Assembly (NCBI GenBank): GCA_020854055.1
Contig: JADZGD010000064.1
Location: 1 to 64,000, forward strand
DNA from: Bryobacterales bacterium
GTDB taxonomy: Bacteria > Acidobacteriota > Terriglobia > Bryobacterales > Bryobacteraceae
Length of the DNA stretch: 64,000 bases
Reading direction: 5' to 3'
Under the pieces are notes generated by a model that worked only from the letters and a program-made list of their open reading frames with translations, was not told the DNA's origin and did no database searches. Each line of letters begins with the position of its first letter. Within the stretch, counting starts at the first letter, position 1. Made by a program: the position numbers and the translations under genes. Shown one piece after another: positions 414 to 41,776 of this stretch.

Positions 414-2002
414 GATTGGTTCGATGCTGCTTTCTCTTCGTGATAGTCCGATTCGGTGTTTACATTCCAGATATTGCTCTTGTCCGTATTGCCGGACAGA
501 ATATTGTCGACGGCTACCATGGCAGTGAGCATCGAGTGATCCTGATTATTGTAGCGGTGCATGCCATTACGACCTAAGAGAAACAGGTTCTGGTAGCGGT
601 CGACATAAGAGCGGATCTCAGCGAAACGATCATACGTACCAAAGTAGGCGGGGTAGGTCTTCTCAACGTGGATTACAGTCGAATCGAGAACCTCGCCGGC
701 ATCGATGATGCCAATCCGGGATAACTCCTGGATTGCCAATTGCGCCATGCTTTCGCGTGGCATCGTCCAGAGGCTGTCGCCCTCGTTACAGAAGTATTCG
801 AGGCCGAGCCAGACCGACTCCGGATCCGCCACCATGCCGGGACTCCAATTGTTAAAGATCTGCAGCCGGCCGAGGCGAACGTCCGGCTCCTGGATGTAGA
901 TCCAATTGTCGGAAATCAATTTCCGGCCTTGAGGGGTATCGTCAGAGACTCTTAATGACCGCACGAGCAGACCGACAGTAATGAAGTCGCGATAGACGAG
1001 GCCATCGGAGACTTCAAGGACGGAAGATGGCGGAGCCGGACGAAAGGAGCGCATCAGCTCGCGTACCGGGGCGGTGGAGAAGAAGTAATCGCCAGTAAAG
1101 GTTTCGACCTGGCCGGTGGTGGCGTTTACCGCTTCGAGTGCGTGGATGTTCCCGTCCGAGGCTTGTAGTCCTTGAAAGGTGTAACCGGTATGAATGCTGC
1201 CGCCCAGTTCGCGAATTTGGCGGGCGACTTCCTCCCACATCTGACCCGGGCCAAACTTCGGGTAAAGGAACTGCTCAATCAACGACGTTTCGGTGTCCTT
1301 TTGCGCGATGCCCTTTGACTTGGGCCCGAAAGCGGCTTTCGCCGCGTGTGCCAATGTTGCCCAGACCGAAAGCCCTTTGATTCGCTGCGCGCCCCACTCA
1401 GCGCTGATCTGGTTGCACGGTACGCCCCAGACTTTTTCGGTGTAGGATTTGAAGAAGGTCTGGTATAATTCACGACCGAAACGGTTGATAAAAAACGCCT
1501 CTAGCGTGTCCTCTTTATTCAGCGGGAAGACGGTACTTCTGATGTAGCTCAGCCCGATTTTGAAGGTTCTCCACAAACCTAATTTTATTAGGGTGTCCTT
1601 GCTGAGGCGGATCGGGTAATCGAAGAAGCGCCGAAGGTAGAAAATCCGGGACTTCCGGGGACGTAACAGCATGACCCTATCGGTGGAAGGGATGACGGAT
1701 GGGGCCGCGGCCACGCTTTGCTCCATCTGGTGATAGCGAATTGTATTGGAGCCTGGTTCGGCGGTGGCGGCCAGAGGGAGAATCCTGAGCCACCATTGCA
1801 TGACCCTGTCGGACTTTGAGAAGAAGCGATGCCCGCCAATGTCCATGCGGTTGCCTTTATAGTTAACCGTTCGGGAGATGCCGCCGATATAGTCTCCCTT
1901 TTCTAATACGATGGGGTGAATTTGTGTACGGGTGAGTAGTTCATACGCTGCCGTTAATCCGGCAGGGCCCGCGCCGATTATAATTGCCTGTTTCTTCTGC
2001 AT
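410..2002 (-). CDS. NAD(P)/FAD-dependent oxidoreductase, UDP-galactopyranose mutase/protoporphyrinogen-oxidase-like
   Basis: A flavin amine-oxidoreductase-type protein. The N-terminus carries the Rossmann dinucleotide motif ([18 protein letters not shown]), followed by the acidic end of beta-2 (VLEKG) and the GG..R segment IGGISRT. The C-terminus has the second FAD-contact region near [18 protein letters not shown]. The ATG at 2000-2002 places the FAD motif directly after the start; a TTG at 2047 would add 15 residues and is less likely. Such proteins often sit beside GtrA and GT2 genes and are annotated as nucleotide-sugar mutase-like enzymes acting on lipid-linked or surface sugars. The GtrA gene follows with a 4-base overlap. 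The exact reaction cannot be told from sequence. Confidence 0.85.
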
Positions 2003-30184: not shown

Positions 30185-30201
30185 AAGGTGTGGGCCGTTT
30201 T

Positions 30202-33200
30202 ATGAATCGATATCCGGTAATCCTCATGGCTGTCCTGCTGGCGGCCCCGTGCGCTACCGCAGCCCTCATTCCCGTCCATCTGCGCTGCGAGTATCTCGAC
30301 AACCCGCAGGGAATCGACGCGCCGAAACCCCGCCTCAGTTGGGTGCTGATAGCCCGTCCGGTAACGTTGCGCAACCAGTCGCAATCGGCCTATCGTGTGC
30401 TGGTAGCCTCCTCGGTCATCAAACTTGCCGCCAACCAGGGCGACGTTTGGGATAGCGGCAAGGTGCCTTCCTCCGAACAGGCTCAGGTGGAATATGCCGG
30501 GCCGGCGCTTGCCAGCCGCCGCCCCTACTTCTGGAAAGTGCAGGTCTGGGACAACGCGGGCTCGGCATCACGCTGGAGCGCTCCAGCCCGCTGGTCGATG
30601 GGAATTCTCACGCGCGGCGAGTGGCAGGCCAAGTGGATCTGGGATCCCGCCACCGTTGTCGCGCCCGGCGCCGACGCCAGGTCCCGCGCGGCCTCTCACA
30701 ACGGATATCTATCGCGCATGTCCGATCACCCCACGGAGTTCCGCTGGGTGGGTGTCGATCTGGGCAGTCCCAAGACCGTAGACGCCGTGCGCCTCTGGCC
30801 GGCCCAATCGGAGCGCGGCAGCCGTCCCTTCCAGTATCCGGTGCGCCTGCGAGTGGAGTCGGGCACCGATGCCGCCTTCTCCTCTCCCGGGACACTGGTC
30901 GAATTCAGTGATGCCGATGTCAGGGTGCCCCGACCAGGCGCCTATGCCGAATACAAGTTTCCGCCGGTCACCGCTCGATTCATCCGCGTGCTGTCGCTCA
31001 AATCCGGCGGCGGCTCCGATGTTGCCCGTGGCCTGGCGCTGGCCGAAATGGAAGTGATGTCCTCGGGCGTCAATGTGGCACGCGGCGCCAAGGTGCTGGC
31101 ATTCGACGTCAGTGAAAACGGCGGCTGGTCGCGCACCAACCTGGTGGATGGCCGCACCCGGCTGATCGAACTGGTTCCGCCCGTTCAACCGGTGGCCGCC
31201 TTTCGCAAGAGCTTCCAGGTGAACGGCACGGTGAAACGCGCCACCGCCTACGCCACCGCGCGTGGCGTCTATCAACTTCGGGTGAACGGCAAAGCCGCCG
31301 ATGACCGTGTGCTGGCGCCCGAGTTTACGGACTACGCCCGCCGCATCCAGTACCAGACCTACGACGTCACCCGCGACATCCGGCCCGGTGAAAACGTGGT
31401 GGCGGCGCTGGTCGGCGCCGGATGGTACGCAGGCCGTGTCGGTCTTTACCAGCGCCAAATGTACGGCGTGCAGACAGCGTTGCTGGCGCGCCTGGAAGTG
31501 GAGTTGACCAACGGCCGCACAATCACCGTGGTGAGCGATGAAACCTGGAAGCGCGATCCGGCTCCGGCCATGGTCTCCTCCGACATGCTCGATGGCGACC
31601 TGTACGACGCTTGCCGTGAACACCCCGGCTGGGATGCCCCCGGGTTCTCCGCCAACGGATGGAAGTCCGCCGAGGCCGATGCTTCGCCGGGCGGCGCGGC
31701 GCTTTCGGCGCAGCCCAACGAGCCGATACGCCCGATGTTGGAGCACAAGCCGGTGAAGCTGTCTTCCCCCGAAAAAGGCGTCTACATCTTTGACATGGGG
31801 CAGAACATGGTGGGCTGGTGCCGTCTGAAGGTGGCCGGCGCTCGCGGCCAGAAGATCACGCTGCGCTATGGAGAGGCGCTGAACGATAACGGCACGCTCT
31901 ACACCGTGAACCTGCGGGGCGCGCTGCAAACGGACGCATTCATCCTGAAAGGGGGAGGCGAAGAGACGTTTGAGCCGATGTTCACTTACCACGGTTTCCG
32001 TTACGTTGAATTGACGGGTGTTACTGAGCCGCCCACGCTCAGCACGCTGACGGGCCGTGTGATCTACTCCGGGGCGCCGGGCGCGGGCACGTTTCATAGC
32101 TCGAGTCCGCTCGCCAACCGGTTGATGAGCAACATTCTCTGGACCCAGCGCGGCAACATGTACAGCGTTCCCACCGACTGCCCACAGCGTGACGAGCGCC
32201 TGGGCTGGATGGGCGACGCCCAAACCTTCTCCCAAACCGCCATTTTCAACATGGATATGGCCGGTTTCTATACGAAATGGGCGCTCGACATCCGCGACGA
32301 CCAGGCTCCCAGCGGCCAGTTCCCCGACTACGCGCCGAACCCCGGTATTCGCCAACAGCCTCCGCGCCAGGTGGGCGCCCCGGCCTGGGGTGACGCCGGC
32401 GTCATCGTTCCATGGCGGGTATGGGAGAACTACGGCGACAAGCGAATTCTCGAAGAGCAGTACCCCGCGGCCCGCCGCTGGGTGGAATTCATCCGCCAAA
32501 ACAACCCGAACCACCTATGGGAAAACCAGCGCGCCGCCGACTATAACGACTGGGTGAACGGAGACTTCATCATCAAGGACGGCTGGCCCACCACTGGTGC
32601 TGCCATTCCCAAGCCGGTCTTCGCCACTGCGTTCTGGGCACACTCTACGAACCTGCTGGCGCAAATGGCTGCGATCCTCGGCAAGACCTCGGAGGCCGCC
32701 GCGTACCACCAGTTGTTTGAAGACATTCGCGCCGCTTTCAATCGCGCCTGGGTAAAGCCTGATGGCGTCATCGAAGGAGACACCCAGGCCGGCTACGCGC
32801 TGGCGCTGCACTTCAACCTGCTGCCGGATGAGATGCGCCCGCTCGCGCTGAAACATTTGAATGCCGGGCTGGACCGCTATCACGGCCACCTCTCCACCGG
32901 CATTCACGCCACCAGCCGGCTGATGCTGGAACTGGCGCGCGGCGGTGAGACGGCCCGGGCCTACAACGCCCTGCTGATGCGCAGTTTCCCCTCCTGGGGA
33001 TTCATGATCGACAACGGCGCCACCACCATCTGGGAGCGCTGGGACGGCTACGTGAAAGGGCGCGGCTTCCAGAACCCCGGCATGAATTCGTTCAATCACT
33101 GGGCCTTCGGCGCGGTGGGCGAATGGATGTGGCGGGTGATCGCCGGCCTCAATCCCGACGCCGCCGCGCCCGGCTACGCCCACTTCGTGGTGCGGCCCCA

Positions 33201-33456
33201 GCCAGGTGGGGGATTGACCTCGGCCACCAGTGAGTACAACTCCATTCGCGGACCCATTCGTATCCGCTGGAACATCGCCGCCAAGGTCTTTACATTGCAG
33301 GTTTCCGTACCAGTAAACAGTTCAGCCACCGTCTGGGTGCCGGGCTCTGATGCCAAGTCCGATGTAGCCGGCCTGGCGCCCCAAGCGGGTGGAACCGGAG
33401 CCACGGCGTTCCGCGTCGGCTCCGGCAATTACGTGTTCCGCTCCACTTTCCAGTAG
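30202..33456 (+). CDS. alpha-L-rhamnosidase, GH78, exported, with inserted discoidin-like domain
   Basis: About 1084 residues with a signal peptide (RYPVILMAVLLAAPCATA). ATG 30202 is preferred to the GTG at 30190. Order: fibronectin-like N domain (LRCEYLDNPQGIDAPKPRLS), an inserted F5/8-type-C-like segment (about 170-310, with a NVARGAKVLAFD repeat start), the rhamnosidase beta domain, then the alpha/alpha barrel with TDCPQRDERLGWMGDAQ and WGFMIDNGATTIWERWDGY, where GH78 catalytic acids lie. It releases terminal L-rhamnose from rhamnogalacturonan or glycosides. The SDR gene follows within 11 bases. Confidence 0.93.
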   Translation: MNRYPVILMAVLLAAPCATAALIPVHLRCEYLDNPQGIDAPKPRLSWVLIARPVTLRNQSQSAYRVLVASSVIKLAANQGDVWDSGKVPSSEQAQVEYAGPALASRRPYFWKVQVWDNAGSASRWSAPARWSMGILTRGEWQAKWIWDPATVVAPGADARSRAASHNGYLSRMSDHPTEFRWVGVDLGSPKTVDAVRLWPAQSERGSRPFQYPVRLRVESGTDAAFSSPGTLVEFSDADVRVPRPGAYAEYKFPPVTARFIRVLSLKSGGGSDVARGLALAEMEVMSSGVNVARGAKVLAFDVSENGGWSRTNLVDGRTRLIELVPPVQPVAAFRKSFQVNGTVKRATAYATARGVYQLRVNGKAADDRVLAPEFTDYARRIQYQTYDVTRDIRPGENVVAALVGAGWYAGRVGLYQRQMYGVQTALLARLEVELTNGRTITVVSDETWKRDPAPAMVSSDMLDGDLYDACREHPGWDAPGFSANGWKSAEADASPGGAALSAQPNEPIRPMLEHKPVKLSSPEKGVYIFDMGQNMVGWCRLKVAGARGQKITLRYGEALNDNGTLYTVNLRGALQTDAFILKGGGEETFEPMFTYHGFRYVELTGVTEPPTLSTLTGRVIYSGAPGAGTFHSSSPLANRLMSNILWTQRGNMYSVPTDCPQRDERLGWMGDAQTFSQTAIFNMDMAGFYTKWALDIRDDQAPSGQFPDYAPNPGIRQQPPRQVGAPAWGDAGVIVPWRVWENYGDKRILEEQYPAARRWVEFIRQNNPNHLWENQRAADYNDWVNGDFIIKDGWPTTGAAIPKPVFATAFWAHSTNLLAQMAAILGKTSEAAAYHQLFEDIRAAFNRAWVKPDGVIEGDTQAGYALALHFNLLPDEMRPLALKHLNAGLDRYHGHLSTGIHATSRLMLELARGGETARAYNALLMRSFPSWGFMIDNGATTIWERWDGYVKGRGFQNPGMNSFNHWAFGAVGEWMWRVIAGLNPDAAAPGYAHFVVRPQPGGGLTSATSEYNSIRGPIRIRWNIAAKVFTLQVSVPVNSSATVWVPGSDAKSDVAGLAPQAGGTGATAFRVGSGNYVFRSTFQ

Positions 33457-33466
33457 GAGACGTTTC

Positions 33467-34285
33467 ATGAAGACGCGCGCGGCCATACCCGGCCGCTTTC
33501 ACAACCGGACCGCGATTGTTACCGGCGGTGCCTCCGGCATCGGCCGCGCCGTTGTGGAGGAACTGCTGCAAGAAGGCGCTTCGGTTTGCTTTCTGGATTC
33601 GAGCGGCACCGGCGCGGCGCTGGCCTCCGAATGGGCCGGCCGCGGCGCGGGCGTCATGTTCTGCCACGGCGATGTCAGCGACGAGGCATTTTGCCGCGCT
33701 TCGGTGGATTACGCAGCTTCCCGTTGGGGCCGCGTGGATTACCTGGTAAACAACGCCTTTTCGTTCAACGCCAAGGGCCTCGACGCCACCCATGCGGACT
33801 GGAGCCGCGTGATGGATGTGGGTCCGGTAGCCTACGCCCGCCTGGCGCAACTGGTGGTGGAGCCGATGAAGCTGGCCGGCGGCGGGGCGATTGTGAATGT
33901 CTCCAGCATCTCCGCGTTCATTGCCCAACCCAACCGTTGGACGTATAATGCGGCCAAGGGCGCCGTACACACGCTGACCAAGTGTATGGCCCTCGATCTG
34001 GCGCCATACGGCATCCGTGTCAACAGCGTGAGCCCGGGCTGGATCTGGACGCAGGAAGTGGACAAGGCGGCCGCCGGAGACCGCCGGCGCTGGGAGCCCG
34101 TCTGGGGGCAGTTCCACATGTTGGAGCGTTGCGGCGACCCGGTGGAGGTTGCCGGGCCAATCCTGTTTTTGTTGAGCGACGATGCTTCGTTCATCACCGC
34201 CGCCGACCTGGCTGTAGATGGCGGCTATCAGGGGTTGGGAAGTGAAGGGATCGGAAAGGCCAGCAAGTTTGCAGGCTCCGCTTAG
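33467..34285 (+). CDS. short-chain dehydrogenase/reductase (possible sugar dehydrogenase)
   Basis: 272 residues. Classical SDR: cofactor motif VTGGASGIGRAV, NNA at YLVNNAF, catalytic Ser in VNVSSISAF, and the YxxxK pair in TYNAAKGAV; the tail has the usual VNSVSPGWIWT and AADLAVDGGY. ATG 33467 has AGGAG 9 bases upstream. It sits between GH78 and the heme/TPR protein, so oxidation of a released sugar such as L-rhamnose is plausible (inference). Cofactor preference was not determined. Confidence 0.88.
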   Translation: MKTRAAIPGRFHNRTAIVTGGASGIGRAVVEELLQEGASVCFLDSSGTGAALASEWAGRGAGVMFCHGDVSDEAFCRASVDYAASRWGRVDYLVNNAFSFNAKGLDATHADWSRVMDVGPVAYARLAQLVVEPMKLAGGGAIVNVSSISAFIAQPNRWTYNAAKGAVHTLTKCMALDLAPYGIRVNSVSPGWIWTQEVDKAAAGDRRRWEPVWGQFHMLERCGDPVEVAGPILFLLSDDASFITAADLAVDGGYQGLGSEGIGKASKFAGSA

Positions 34286-34310: not shown

Positions 34311-36701
34311 GTGAGTGTCGTGAGGTTTTTTGTTGTCTGGGGTGCGCTGTCACTGGGCATGATCGCTTCAGCGCAGACGATTGTGGTGGATTATCCCCGT
34401 GAAGGATCGATCTTCCCTCCGGAGATTACAGCGCCCACGTTCCTGTGGCGCGACAAGGACCCGGCGGCCACTCGCTGGCGGATCGAAATCCGTTTCAGCG
34501 ACGGCTCACAGCCGGCTCAATTTACCGTGCCGGGCGAACGGCTGCGGCTGGGCAGCATCGATCCGCGCTGCGTGTCGAATACCAATGAGCTGCCGAAACT
34601 GACGCCCGAACAGGCTGCGGCCCACACCTGGATTCCGGATGAAGCCGCCTGGGCCGCCATCAAGCAACACAGTGTGGAGAAACCCGCCGTCATTACCATT
34701 GCCGGCCTGCGTGGAGACCAGGCGGTTTCCCAGGGCCGCATCACGATCACCACCTCAAAAGATCCGGTCGGCGCGCCCATCTTCTATCGCGATGTGCCGC
34801 TGATGCCCGCCGAAACCGAGAAGGGTGTAATTCAACCGCTGGCTGCCAGCGCCATACGCCTGATCCGCTGGCGCATTCGCGACATCGGTCAGCCGAGCAG
34901 CCACTCTGTCATCGAAAACATGCCTACTTGCGCCAACTGTCACAGCTTCTCCATGGACGGCAAGACGCTGGGCATGGATCTGGACGGCCCGCAGAACAAC
35001 AAGGGCATGTATACGCTGGCCTCCATCCGCCCGGAGATGACCATCAACCCGCGCGACGTCATCGAGTGGAGCTCTTCCAAGGGCACGCTGGCGGGCAAGA
35101 TGCGTATCGGCTTCATGTCCCAGGTTTCGCCCGACGGCCGCTATGTAGTCACCCGGGTGAACGGCCTCGATCCCGATCCCGGCCAGAACGCCGGCAACCC
35201 GGATTACTACGTTGCCAACTTCACTAACTACAAGTTCCTCCAGGTCTTCTATCCCACGCGCGGTATCCTGGCCTGGTACAGCCGCTCTACCGGCCGTTTG
35301 CAGCCTCTTCCGGGCGCCGACGACCCCCGTTTTGTTCAGACCAGCGCCTTCTGGAGCCCTGACGGCAAGTACCTCATCTTCGGCCGCGATACCGCTCAGG
35401 ACGCTTACCCCCCGGGAGCGCCCCTGGCCAAATTCGCCAACGATCCCAATGAGCGCCAGGTGCGCTTCAGCCTCTACCGCATTCCATTTAATGAAGGACG
35501 CGGAGGCAAGGCCGAGCCGGTCCAGGGCGCTTCCAACAACGGCTGGAGCAACAACTTCCCCAAGGTTTCCCCCGACGGCAAATGGATCGTCTTCGTGCGC
35601 TGCCGCAACGGCCAGTTGATGCGCCCCGATGGTCAACTCTACATGGTGCCCTTTGAAGGCGGCACCGCCCGGCGCATGAACTGCAACATGACGCCCATGA
35701 ACTCCTGGCACAGCTTCTCGCCCAACGGCCGCTGGCTGGTATTTTCGTCAAAAAGCCGTTCTCCGTTCACCCGCATGTTCCTCACTCACATCGACGAGCG
35801 CGGCAACGATAGCCCGGCCATTCTCATCGACAACCCTACCGAGGCCAACCGGGCGGTGAACATCCCGGAGTTCGTTAACATACCGCCCGGCTATCTGCGC
35901 AAGATCAACGTGCCGGCGGTGGACCTCTATAAGAGAATCGACGCCGCCGCCGATCTGATGGCAAAGGGTGAGTATCAAGCCTCCGCGGCCGCCTGGCGGA
36001 AGGTGATCGAAGTGGAGCCAAACAACGCCAACGCCCGCAACAATCTGGGGATGACGCTGGCCCAAAGCGGGGAACTGGATGAGGCGATCCGCCAGTACCG
36101 GAAAGCGGTTGAGCTGAAAAAGGATTTCGTCCAGGCCCAAAGCAGCCTGGGCAGCACGCTGGCCATGAAGGGCCGGTTGCCCGATGCCGTCGCCGCCCTG
36201 CGCCGCGCCGTGGAGATGGATCCGTCCTACGCCTCGGCTCACAACAACCTGGGGCTGGCGCTGTTTCAAACCGGGCAAACGGGCGACGCCATTACGGAAT
36301 TCCGCAAGGCAGCGGAACTGAAGCCCGGCCTGGTTTCCGTGCACTCCAATCTGGGAAGCGCTCTGGCCACCGAGGGACGGCTGGCGGAGGCGATTGTTGA
36401 ATTTCGCAAGTCGATCGGGATCGATCCCAAACAGCCTAAGTCGCAGTTCAATCTGGGCGTGGCGCTGAGTCAGGCCGGGCTCAGCGGCGAGGCCATTCCC
36501 CATCTGCGCAAAGCGGTGGAACTCGATCCCAATTATGCGCAGGCGCGCTACGTGCTGGCGGACGCGCTCTACGCCGGTGGCCACGGCAAGGAAGCAGTAG
36601 CCGAGTGGCGCGAGGCTCTCCGTCTCAAGCCGGATTACCTGCCGGCCCCCGAATTGAAACAGGTGAAGGACCGCATCAGCCGCCTGGAAGCCGCAAAGTA
36701 A
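34311..36701 (+). CDS. exported protein with c-type heme motif, beta-propeller repeats and TPRs
   Basis: About 796 residues. GTG 34311 (or 34320) opens into a signal peptide (VRFFVVWGALSLGMIASAQ). A beta-sandwich-like N-terminal domain (residues 20-190) is followed by one covalent heme site, CANCH at residues 207-211. Next come TolB/PD40-type blades (SPDGRYVVTRVNG, SPDGKYLIFGRD, SPDGKWIVFVRC, SPNGRWLVFSSK) to about residue 520. About seven TPRs then run from residue 550 to the end (NARNNLGMTLAQSGELDEAI and repeats). The mix suggests a periplasmic electron-transfer or scaffold protein. It is co-directional with GH78 and SDR. Function is not known. Confidence 0.85.
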   Translation: MSVVRFFVVWGALSLGMIASAQTIVVDYPREGSIFPPEITAPTFLWRDKDPAATRWRIEIRFSDGSQPAQFTVPGERLRLGSIDPRCVSNTNELPKLTPEQAAAHTWIPDEAAWAAIKQHSVEKPAVITIAGLRGDQAVSQGRITITTSKDPVGAPIFYRDVPLMPAETEKGVIQPLAASAIRLIRWRIRDIGQPSSHSVIENMPTCANCHSFSMDGKTLGMDLDGPQNNKGMYTLASIRPEMTINPRDVIEWSSSKGTLAGKMRIGFMSQVSPDGRYVVTRVNGLDPDPGQNAGNPDYYVANFTNYKFLQVFYPTRGILAWYSRSTGRLQPLPGADDPRFVQTSAFWSPDGKYLIFGRDTAQDAYPPGAPLAKFANDPNERQVRFSLYRIPFNEGRGGKAEPVQGASNNGWSNNFPKVSPDGKWIVFVRCRNGQLMRPDGQLYMVPFEGGTARRMNCNMTPMNSWHSFSPNGRWLVFSSKSRSPFTRMFLTHIDERGNDSPAILIDNPTEANRAVNIPEFVNIPPGYLRKINVPAVDLYKRIDAAADLMAKGEYQASAAAWRKVIEVEPNNANARNNLGMTLAQSGELDEAIRQYRKAVELKKDFVQAQSSLGSTLAMKGRLPDAVAALRRAVEMDPSYASAHNNLGLALFQTGQTGDAITEFRKAAELKPGLVSVHSNLGSALATEGRLAEAIVEFRKSIGIDPKQPKSQFNLGVALSQAGLSGEAIPHLRKAVELDPNYAQARYVLADALYAGGHGKEAVAEWREALRLKPDYLPAPELKQVKDRISRLEAAK

Positions 36702-37267: not shown

Positions 37268-40200
37268 ATGACTGAAATACGGCTGGCAATTCCACTCGCG
37301 TTGACGCTGTTTGCAGGCGCGCTCCAGGGCGCATCCGTGCGCCCCGCGGCGCTCCGCTGCGACTTCCGTACCAATCCGCAAGGCATCGATGATCGCCATC
37401 CGCGCCTCAGTTGGATCCTCGAACCGCTCGATCCATCGGCCCGCGGCCTCAATCAGAGCGCGTATCAGGTCGTCGCCTCCGCCGGCGCCGAACTGTGGAA
37501 CAGTGGCAAGGTCACCTCGGATCAGTCCGTGCAAGTGGTCTACGCCGGCAAGCCGCTCACCTCCCGTATGCAGGTTACCTGGAAGGTGCGAGTGTGGGAT
37601 CAGGATGGCAAGGTCTCCGAATGGAGCCAGCCCGCGCATTGGACGATGGGCCTGCTGGAGCCGGGCGATTGGAAAGGGCAGTGGATCGGGTTGGATCAGA
37701 CCGCGATTTACCGCAATCCCGACAGCCCGTTTGCCAATCTCATTGGAGCGCGCTGGATCTGGCCTCGCACAGGCCCCCGCGTGGCCATCTCTTTCGATGT
37801 GCCGCCGAAGGCCCGCCTGCGCCGGGCCTTCGCGGTAGCCGCCGGTTCAGGCTCATTCGTGCTGGAGTTGAACGGCCGCCAGGTGGGGAAGGGAAGGGCC
37901 GGGTCCCTGTTGCCGGAGTACGACCTGGCGGGCGCGGTGCGCCCCGGCAAGAACGAGTTTGCCGCGAACCTTACCGCCGGCAAGACCGGGCCCGATGCCT
38001 GGATCGCCGCGCTACGGCTGGAGTTCGACGGCCACGAACCCATGGTGATCCGCACCGGCAGCGGCTGGAACGGTGTGGAAGACGTTGGTCCCTACGGCAT
38101 GGCGCCCCGGGGTGAAGTCGGCCTGATGCAGGATCATGCCCTGCCGGCGCGCCACCTGCGCCGTGAGTTCACCGTCGACAAGAAGGTTCGCCGGGCTGTA
38201 GTCTCCTTTTCCGGGCTTGGTCTTTCCGAACTCTATCTGAATGGCCGAAAGGTGGGTGATGACGTGCTCTCCCCCAACCTGACCGAATACTCCAAGCGCG
38301 TCTTCTACGTCACCCACGATGTCACCGGCTACCTGCGGCAGGGAGCGAACGCCATCGGGCTGCTTCTTGGCAACGGGCGCTATCATGCGCCACGTTCCAC
38401 CAGGCCACAGGTGGGCCAGGATTACGGCAGCCCCAAGGCGCTGCTGCAACTGGATGTGGAGTACGAAGACGGCTCCACCTCGCAGGTCGTGACCGATACG
38501 GCCTGGAAGGTGACCGCGTCCGGCCCCATCCTCGCCAACAACGAGTTCGACGGAGAAGAGTATGATGCCCGCCGGGAAATGCCCGGCTCGGCGATGCCCG
38601 GCTACGATGACAGCCACTGGCAACAAGCGCAGGTGGTTGCCGCCCCCGGTGGCGTCCTGGCCGCGCAGATGATGGAGCCGTTGAAGGTGACCGAGACTCT
38701 GCATCCGGTGAAACTCACCCGCCGCCGTCCGGGCGTGTGGATTTTCGATATGGGCCAGAACATGGTGGGCTGGTGCCGGTTGCGTGTCTCCGGGAAAGCC
38801 GGGACGAAACTGGTGTTGCGGCATGCCGAGACACTGGCGCCCGATGGCGGCCTCTACGTTGATAATCTGCGCTCGGCCCGCGCTACCGACACCTACATCC
38901 TCAAGGGGCAGGGCCAGGAGGTCTGGGAGCCGCGCTTTACCTATCACGGTTTCCGCTACGTCGAGTTAATCGGTTATCCCGGCGAGCCCAAACTCACCTC
39001 GCTCGAAGGCCGCGTGGTCCATGACGCGCTGACTCCAACTTCGAGTTTTGAGACGTCGAACACGGTTCTCAACCACATCCACCGCAATATGATTTGGGGA
39101 TTTCGCGGCAACTACCGCAGCATTCCCACCGATTGTCCGCAACGCGACGAGCGCCAGGGCTGGCTCGGCGACCGCTCGCTCGACAGCCTGTCGGAATCTT
39201 ACCTGTTCGACGTCGCCGCGTTCTACGAAAAGTGGATGCAGGATATCGCCGATACACAGACGGCCGAAGGCAGCGTCCCCGATGTTGCGCCCAGCTACTG
39301 GAGGGTCTACAGAGACGACGTCACCTGGCCTGCCACTTTCCTGCTGATCCACCAGATGCTCTATGACCAGTACGGGGACAAACGTGTCCTCGCCCGGGAT
39401 TATCCTGCCATGCGGCGGTGGATCGCCTATATGCAGACCAAGTACGAGAAGGACGGTCTGATGCCGCGTGACGAGTACGGCGACTGGTGCGTGCCGCCCG
39501 AATCGCCCGAACTCATCGCCACCCACGACCCGGCGCGTAAAACGGCGGGAGACTTTCTCGGCTCAGCCTACTTCTACCATCTGCTGCGGCTCATGTCGCG
39601 CTTCGCCACCATTTTGGAGAGGCCCACCGAGGCGCGCCGGTATGCAGCCGGGGCCGAAGCCATGCGCGCCGCCTTTGAACGCAAGTACTTTAACGCGCAA
39701 CTCGGTTACTACAGCAACGGAACGCAAACCTCCACCGTGCTGCCGCTGGCGTTCGGCATCACGCCGCCGGCCAACCAACAGCGGGTTTTCGATCATCTGA
39801 TCGCAAAAATTGAGAACGAAACGAAAGGACACATCGGCGTCGGTCTGATCGGCGCGCAATGGCTGGTGCGGCTACTGTCGGATCGTGGCCGTACCGATGT
39901 CGCCTACCGCATGACAACCGAGGAGACATACCCAAGCTGGGGCTACATGATTCGCAAGGGCGCCACCACCATCTGGGAACTCTGGAACGGCGACACCGCC
40001 GACCCGTCGATGAACTCTCACAACCATCTGATGATGGTCGGAGACCTGGGCGCGTGGATGTACGGCTATCTTGGCGGCATTCGTAGCGATCCGGAAAAGC
40101 CCGGCTTCCGTCATATCCTCATCCGGCCTTACATGCCCGATGGGTTGGCCTTCACACGGGCATCTTTCCGCTCGCAATACGGCAACATCGCGACCGCCTG

Positions 40201-40414
40201 GCGCCGCAGCGGCGCCGGTGTAGAACTTGATGTGCGGATCCCGCCCAACACCACCGCCAGCCTGATGATTCCGGCTTCGGGCTCCGGTGCGGTTACCGAG
40301 TCCGGCGTGCTGGCAAAAAGCGCCCGGGGTGTACGGTTTGAGCGGATGGAAAGCGGCCTGGCGGTATTCACCCTGGGCTCCGGCAACTACCGCTTCCACT
40401 CTTCCAGCAAGTGA
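37268..40414 (+). CDS. alpha-L-rhamnosidase, GH78, exported (second copy)
   Basis: 1048 residues with a signal peptide (IRLAIPLALTLFAGALQGAS). Same layout as the first GH78 (LRCDFRTNPQGIDDRHPRLS; FDMGQNMVGWCRL; TDCPQRDERQGWLGDRSLD; WGYMIRKGATTIWELWNGD) but without the discoidin-like insert. The two share many blocks yet differ throughout, an old duplication or independent gains rather than a recent copy. Together they probably cover different rhamnosyl linkages. The IclR/PBP-type regulator follows about 200 bases downstream in the same direction. Confidence 0.93.
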   Translation: MTEIRLAIPLALTLFAGALQGASVRPAALRCDFRTNPQGIDDRHPRLSWILEPLDPSARGLNQSAYQVVASAGAELWNSGKVTSDQSVQVVYAGKPLTSRMQVTWKVRVWDQDGKVSEWSQPAHWTMGLLEPGDWKGQWIGLDQTAIYRNPDSPFANLIGARWIWPRTGPRVAISFDVPPKARLRRAFAVAAGSGSFVLELNGRQVGKGRAGSLLPEYDLAGAVRPGKNEFAANLTAGKTGPDAWIAALRLEFDGHEPMVIRTGSGWNGVEDVGPYGMAPRGEVGLMQDHALPARHLRREFTVDKKVRRAVVSFSGLGLSELYLNGRKVGDDVLSPNLTEYSKRVFYVTHDVTGYLRQGANAIGLLLGNGRYHAPRSTRPQVGQDYGSPKALLQLDVEYEDGSTSQVVTDTAWKVTASGPILANNEFDGEEYDARREMPGSAMPGYDDSHWQQAQVVAAPGGVLAAQMMEPLKVTETLHPVKLTRRRPGVWIFDMGQNMVGWCRLRVSGKAGTKLVLRHAETLAPDGGLYVDNLRSARATDTYILKGQGQEVWEPRFTYHGFRYVELIGYPGEPKLTSLEGRVVHDALTPTSSFETSNTVLNHIHRNMIWGFRGNYRSIPTDCPQRDERQGWLGDRSLDSLSESYLFDVAAFYEKWMQDIADTQTAEGSVPDVAPSYWRVYRDDVTWPATFLLIHQMLYDQYGDKRVLARDYPAMRRWIAYMQTKYEKDGLMPRDEYGDWCVPPESPELIATHDPARKTAGDFLGSAYFYHLLRLMSRFATILERPTEARRYAAGAEAMRAAFERKYFNAQLGYYSNGTQTSTVLPLAFGITPPANQQRVFDHLIAKIENETKGHIGVGLIGAQWLVRLLSDRGRTDVAYRMTTEETYPSWGYMIRKGATTIWELWNGDTADPSMNSHNHLMMVGDLGAWMYGYLGGIRSDPEKPGFRHILIRPYMPDGLAFTRASFRSQYGNIATAWRRSGAGVELDVRIPPNTTASLMIPASGSGAVTESGVLAKSARGVRFERMESGLAVFTLGSGNYRFHSSSK

Positions 40415-40615: not shown

Positions 40616-41776
40616 GTGAGCAACGAAGTAGAGAGGCGGTATTTTGTTGAAGCTGCCGCCAAGGCGCTGGATGTACTGGAAAGCTTTAACGGCTTCGACG
40701 AAGAATTGACCACCAGCGAGATCGTACGCCGGGTGGGACTTACCTACTGCTCGGCCTTCCGCCTGCTCTATACGCTGGAAAAGCGCGGCTACGTAATGCG
40801 TACCGAAGGAGCCAAGCGCTACCGTTTGACTCCCTCGCGCAAACGGTTTCGCATCGGCTACGCGGCGCTGGGCCGTTCCTGCCCGCACTCGCAGGAGATC
40901 TCGCGCGGAATGGTGCTGGCAGCGCGCGCCTACGGCGTTGACCTGCTGCTGCGAGACAACGAGTTCAGTCCGGCCAAAGCGCTGGTGAATGTGGATGGCT
41001 TCCTGGAAGAGCGCGTCCACATGGTGATTGAACACCAGTGGAGCGATGCCGCCGCCGAGGCCATCTCGTCGCATTGCCGCAAAGCCGGCGTGCCGCTGAT
41101 GGCGCTTGACTTCATGCACCCGGACGCCTACTACTACGGCAATGACGATTCATCCGCCGGTAAGCTGAGCGGCCAGTTTCTGCGGCGCTGGACAGACGAG
41201 CGCGGGGAGGAGGCCGAGCGCATTCTGGTGATTCCTCCGCGCGGCACCAGTTCCAATCGCCAGGCGTATCTGACGGGCGTCCGCAGCGGCCGGCGGCAGC
41301 GCTGCGGGAATGCGACTCCACTGGAGGTGATTTCCACCGGCGGACTCTCCACCAGCGATGCATACCGGGCCACCAAGGCCGCCCTTCGTCCGCATGATTC
41401 GCACCGCTCGCTGCTGATTGCCGCCGGTGCGGACGCCTATGCGATCGGCAGCGGCCGCGCCGCTTTGAAGGCCGGACTGGGCCGGGACGTGGCCGTTATC
41501 GGCATGGGAGGCGGCTCGGCCGGCAGGAATCAGATGCTGCGCGAGGAGGCGCTCCGCGCCGCCGTGGCCAGTTTTCCTGAAACGTATGGCGACCGGGTTC
41601 TCTCGCTCGCCTTGCGCATCCTTCAAGGAGAATCCGTCCCCCGGGTCCAGTACACCGAGCACGTGCTGCTCACCTGTTCCAACGTCCGGCAATACTACCC
41701 CGGCGGCGTGCATCGCGAGCCGCGCGGCAACCGGCAGTCTTCGCGCCGTTTGGCGGCGGTTGCCTGCGTCGGCTAA
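40616..41776 (+). CDS. regulator with IclR-type winged helix fused to a periplasmic-binding-protein-like sensor
   Basis: 386 residues. Residues about 10-80 are an IclR-type winged helix (AAKALDVLESF, LTTSEIVRRVGLTYCSAFRLLY, LEKRGYVMR). From about 95 to 350 the protein follows sugar-binding-protein/LacI effector domains instead of the IclR sensor: GVDLLLRDNEFSPAKAL, MVIEHQWSDAAAEAISSHCR and ALKAGLGRDVAVIGMGGG near the end. So DNA binding is IclR-like and sensing is sugar-PBP-like, cytosolic, with no signal peptide. GTG start; an ATG at 40611 would give only two codons. Next to two GH78 genes it probably senses rhamnose or an oligosaccharide (inference). Confidence 0.78.
   Translation: MSNEVERRYFVEAAAKALDVLESFNGFDEELTTSEIVRRVGLTYCSAFRLLYTLEKRGYVMRTEGAKRYRLTPSRKRFRIGYAALGRSCPHSQEISRGMVLAARAYGVDLLLRDNEFSPAKALVNVDGFLEERVHMVIEHQWSDAAAEAISSHCRKAGVPLMALDFMHPDAYYYGNDDSSAGKLSGQFLRRWTDERGEEAERILVIPPRGTSSNRQAYLTGVRSGRRQRCGNATPLEVISTGGLSTSDAYRATKAALRPHDSHRSLLIAAGADAYAIGSGRAALKAGLGRDVAVIGMGGGSAGRNQMLREEALRAAVASFPETYGDRVLSLALRILQGESVPRVQYTEHVLLTCSNVRQYYPGGVHREPRGNRQSSRRLAAVACVG

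Follow-up and report, generated by a model that had tools for sequence, protein, structure and literature searches.

A gene in the 64,000-nucleotide stretch of Bryobacterales DNA analysed here (the window; assembly GCA_020854055.1, contig JADZGD010000064.1) encodes an exported protein whose single heme c attachment motif appears to sit on a blade of a PD40-type propeller followed by TPR repeats. Judged from sequence, the protein represents a real but undescribed family with no special tie to pectin breakdown, because the heme site is unchanged in 88 of 88 relatives from three phyla. An electron-transfer or redox-sensing role, with the TPRs docking partners, may be inferred. There is about an even chance that the family is an exported redox module whose paralogues are re-used in different uptake or metabolic loci.

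The gene product and its family

Table 1. Features of the heme-propeller-TPR gene and its surroundings in the window
Feature	Position	Strand	Basis or remark
Heme-propeller-TPR gene	34311..36701	+	GTG start, 796 aa; ORF and Pfam PD40/TPR
Sec signal peptide, predicted	34311..34376	+	cleavage between VSVVRFFVVWGALSLGMIASA and Q; hydropathy peak, site placed by eye
N-terminal beta-rich domain, residues 23-206	34377..34928	+	P36, W114 and R160 invariant family-wide
CANCH heme c attachment site, residues 207-211	34929..34943	+	start of propeller blade 1
PD40-type propeller, residues 207-502	34929..35816	+	PD40, inter-blade hhalign, TolB-like 2ojh match
Propeller blade motifs, near residues 207-246, 262-300, 340-383, 409-452, 459-502			
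His467 codon, proposed distal heme ligand	35709..35711	+	in SWHSFSPNGRW, last blade
Seven TPR repeats, about residues 545-775	35943..36635	+	Pfam TPR families
GH78 alpha-L-rhamnosidase	30190..33456	+	PF17389 1.1e-111; probable same operon
SDR oxidoreductase	about 33467..34285	+	adh_short_C2 3.5e-58; probable same operon
RidA-family gene, 160 aa	36715..37197	-	PF01042; tail-to-tail with propeller gene
Second GH78 alpha-L-rhamnosidase	37268..40414	+	PF17389 6.7e-113

The layout proposed in the first-pass annotation, PD40 blades and then seven TPRs, is borne out by Pfam, which detects PD40 in three stretches (55 bits, cut-off 20.9) and TPR repeats over the cut-off in seven. CANCH is the sole CxxCH of the product in a sequence scan, which confirms the earlier claim of one heme site per protein. 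Hydropathy shows an N-terminal peak alone, as suits a signal peptide, and no transmembrane segment after it, in agreement with the prediction that the protein is exported. The first 200 residues or so, formerly described as sandwich-like, matched no Pfam family, so the label stays provisional; the strands in a low-confidence AlphaFold model do agree with a beta-rich domain. The models, computed for residues 23-560 and for the propeller alone from three input sequences, reached pLDDT values of 42.8 and 42.5, too low for a reliable fold. Beyond Pfam, NCBIfam gave just sub-threshold TPR and TolB matches.

An initial scan of genome contigs yielded two relatives and a scan of viral contigs yielded none. 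Searches with the non-TPR part of the protein covered 101 near relatives and detected family members in 21, frequently three to five per genome and at 56-67% identity. The family was found in 16 of 297 genomes in a phylum-wide draw of Acidobacteriota and in 11 of 294 genomes of Planctomycetota, the phylum of a Pirellulales MAG (L009) among the loci; Bacteroidota members are about 25% identical. The fetched loci contain 88 family ORFs, each with exactly one CxxCH, which is always CxNCH (CANCH, CTNCH, CMNCH, CVNCH or CGNCH). A chance CxxCH is ruled out, since the motif persists in all 88 even where identity falls to about 24%, and does so in each of the three phyla (Acidobacteriota, Planctomycetota and Bacteroidota). 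The first-pass annotation had regarded the protein as a candidate for an undescribed part and had tied this view to conservation of CxxCH in orthologues; the motif is conserved throughout, and literature searches on the heme-propeller-TPR architecture gave no description. In an alignment of 86 sequences, the invariant residues are P36, W114, R160, C207, N209, C210, H211, P274, S413, S420, G423, H467, N472 and W475 alone. H211 and H467 are thus the only invariant histidines, and no methionine is invariant.

Heme site on the propeller blade

Blade profiles derived from the family alignment were compared by hhalign. The heme segment CHSFSMDGKTLGMDLDGP matched the last blade WHSFSPNGRWLVFSSKSR with 83% probability, CHSFSxDGKTLGM pairing with WHSFSPNGRWLVF. 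Blades 2, 4 and 5 likewise match the last blade (80-95%), whereas N-terminal control segments gave 1% or less. These blade-to-blade matches indicate that a propeller blade begins with the histidine of CxNCH. His211 and His467 share one blade position in the alignment of the blade-1 and blade-6 profiles, and propeller topology implies that the last blade would adjoin blade 1 upon ring closure. As the sole other invariant His or Met, H467 is the only candidate distal ligand among the invariant residues of these two kinds. The natural reading would be a bis-His, six-coordinate heme inside the propeller, with a ligation that we infer from these patterns. The non-heme TolB-like structure 2ojh also has a His at the H467-equivalent blade position in the alignment, so H467 could be invariant for a reason other than ligation.

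Covalent attachment of heme to the propeller protein is predicted from the motif, and the cytochrome c assembly family PF01578 scores over its cut-off in this genome. No cytochrome c domain was matched at E<=1 among the 25 of 29 Pfam families listed, nor in NCBIfam, and a fused cytochrome c domain was rejected on this basis. The protein would be an exported mono-heme c protein, with the heme on blade 1 of a PD40/TolB-like propeller rather than in a cytochrome c domain apart from the propeller. The proximal ligand would come from His211 of CxNCH and the distal one from His467, which occupies the corresponding position in the last blade and would lie beside blade 1 in the closed ring. Such a six-coordinate heme might pass electrons or report redox state, without activation of O2. 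Binding of a partner or ligand may fall to the N-terminal domain and the propeller face, and docking of periplasmic or outer-membrane partners could be the task of the TPR array, which is fused here; a TPR-less branch has a DUF6057 partner. Paralogues would be deployed at different uptake or metabolic loci, the present copy at a rhamnosidase/pectin locus. Somewhat short of an even chance stands the broader proposal of a new structural class of c-type cytochrome, in which the propeller itself is the cytochrome fold: the heme would be bound covalently to one blade and ligated by a histidine of the neighbouring blade, in at least three phyla and with swappable partners (fused TPR or separate DUF6057).

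Heme c and a propeller are a known combination. Cytochrome cd1 nitrite reductase and other cytochrome c-propeller fusions likewise join a covalent heme c and a propeller in one periplasmic polypeptide, but their heme c lies in a separate cytochrome c domain; no Cytochrom_D1 match was present among the 25 of 29 Pfam families listed for our protein. Hydrazine synthase alpha and the HZS-alpha-like PD40 cytochromes also combine heme c with a PD40-type propeller, and HZS-alpha relatives occur in RidA-linked clusters. Identity with hydrazine synthase alpha was rejected, as its PF18582 middle domain was absent among the same 25 of 29 families, and we know of no TPR array or blade-borne heme site described for that enzyme. 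TPR proteins were among the best 60 matches of a PDB profile search, and a PDB phmmer search without the TPRs returned 2ojh plus one chance match and nothing else. This best solved-structure match, the TolB/PD40 propeller Atu1656, is also exported and has PD40 blades with SPDG motifs. TolB-like propellers are heme-free; CxNCH on blade 1, the N-terminal domain and the TPRs are additions of the present family. TolB of Tol-Pal itself was rejected (TIGR02800 26.8 bits, cut-off 343). A PD40 protein of Parabacteroides distasonis (WP_009276472.1) is homologous over the N-terminal domain, the heme motif (CMNCH) and the propeller at about 25% identity, but differs in having no TPR and a DUF6057 partner directly upstream.

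To our knowledge, heme c on a propeller blade has not been described. If correct, the proposal would extend the known ways of binding heme and account for a conserved, exported, multi-copy protein shared by soil Acidobacteriota and gut Bacteroidota; in the latter, for instance Parabacteroides, genetic work may be practicable. The neighbours of each member would offer testable guesses about the purpose of the heme.

The rhamnosidase locus and the pectin link

The propeller gene lies directly behind a GH78 and an SDR gene in a rhamnosidase cluster, a placement that coordinates and Pfam confirm. Co-transcription with the SDR gene on the same strand is likely, since 26 nt separate its stop from the GTG start. 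A RidA-family gene, missing from the list of the first-pass annotation, separates the propeller gene from the second GH78. Positions 18652-43054 of the window form a pectin/xylan-type locus with GH28, GH115, two GH78, two MR/MLE enolases, UxuA, an RraA-like aldolase and an MFS gene. A protein that joins an IclR-type helix-turn-helix to a periplasmic-binding-protein-like domain is encoded at 40616-41776. The presence of GH28, GH115, the two MR/MLE enolases, UxuA and the RraA-like protein makes a pectin/xylan or sugar-acid setting reasonable for this copy.

A dedicated rhamnogalacturonan or pectin component, that is, a heme protein that accepts electrons from sugar oxidation in the operon or senses it, would suit this neighbourhood, with the SDR gene 26 nt away behind GH78 and GH28, GH115, UxuA and MR/MLE genes in the same window. 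Genome counts point the same way: GH78 and the propeller family co-occur in 19 of 21 family-positive genomes, against 26 of 80 others, and among 49 loci from further genomes of this taxonomic family (this locus excluded) GH78 lies near 2, where 0.27 are expected. Conserved linkage with pectin or rhamnose genes was nevertheless not found, since GH78 is near 3 of the 61 fetched family loci and the three GH78-linked copies are scattered across the tree; orthologues adjoin unrelated genes, and a RidA subfamily follows the propeller family better. The SDR is generic according to its solved-structure matches. The rarity and scatter of the GH78 linkage, the better tracking by RidA and the generic SDR together argue against the protein being an enzyme dedicated to pectin, and the pectin-specific explanation is accordingly unlikely. 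Of what had been suggested before, a role in pectin use thus stays plausible for this locus and fails as a family-wide link; GH78 co-occurs with the family at genome level and is near few of its loci. The periplasmic redox step or heme-based sensing is kept as the best reading, now with a candidate distal ligand and detached from a dedication to pectin.

TonB-type barrels, DUF6057 and RidA

Neighbours were counted at 61 loci with genes called by our own simple gene caller. Firmer ties than that to GH78 emerged for TonB-type barrels, for DUF6057 in a TPR-less branch and for a RidA subfamily. TonB-type barrels (OMP_b-brl_4) occupy 14 of 116 positions at +/-1 versus 1 of 202 at +/-4-7, a contrast somewhat inflated by the under-counting of long genes near locus ends. 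This genome has about 50 OMP_b-brl_4 genes, roughly 1% of its genes. Redox enzymes are not constant neighbours of the family. The adjoining barrels suggest uptake-linked sensing and, together with the TPR and propeller as scaffolding modules, would be in keeping with a structural or ligand-binding propeller whose heme stabilises the fold or senses gas or heme and takes no part in electron transfer. This explanation is very improbable: there is no signalling output domain and no constant regulator neighbour, and a coordinated heme fits the invariant H467.

DUF6057 is encoded directly upstream in nine of nine members of the TPR-less branch, which comprises Bacteroidota, some Planctomycetota and locus L101. 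The DUF6057 membrane protein precedes a TPR-less heme propeller in L131, L132, L133, L165, L166, L168 and L101, and tandem DUF6057-propeller pairs occur twice in L133 and twice in L165. Literature searches on DUF6057 returned nothing relevant. Its C-terminus is faintly TPR-like, with a weak hhalign match (62%), and the idea may be entertained that it replaces the TPRs, as a separate partner instead of a fusion.

The RidA subfamily is present in 21 of 21 family-positive near relatives versus 14 of 80 negatives (Fisher 9e-13, shared ancestry ignored) and, in the phylum draw, in 8 of 16 family-positive versus 11 of 281 other genomes (shared ancestry likewise ignored). RidA adjoins the propeller gene in the window and in L068. 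A RidA - DAHP synthase - propeller gene set was observed in two Acidobacteriota families (L095:7235-11051 and L096:6536-10220), with RidA and DAHP synthase upstream of the propeller and four-base overlaps in L096; L097 has a DAHP synthase - propeller pair.

Away from the propeller gene, a conserved and apparently undescribed RidA cluster comprises an HZS-alpha-like PD40 cytochrome, CRTAC1 (ASPIC/UnbV), a YVTN propeller with a MauG-like multiheme peroxidase, Reg_prop, RidA and a periplasmic binding protein (L175, L177, L178, L180, L181, L182, L185 and L187, the last with DAHP synthase). The periplasmic binding protein of this cluster occurs in 16 of the 21 genomes with the family and in 5 of the 80 without it, and is missing from the present genome.

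The propeller might act in an aromatic or imine-linked pathway. Its partners would be a RidA or chorismatase-like protein, DAHP synthase and three members of the RidA cluster: the MauG-like propeller cytochrome, CRTAC1 and the HZS-alpha-like cytochrome. The gene sets of L095 and L096, the DAHP synthase in L097, the adjacency in the window and L068, and the genome distributions of RidA and its cluster would fit such a pathway. It is unlikely all the same, since the majority of propeller loci have no RidA nearby, half of the family-positive genomes of the phylum draw (8 of 16) have none of the subfamily, shared ancestry inflates the statistics, and the compartments differ, RidA being cytosolic and the propeller exported. 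In L101 (6447-7661), a chorismatase-like RidA-fold protein of the FkbO/Hyg5 subfamily (155 bits, below the cut-off of 325) is encoded tail-to-tail with a TPR-less member.
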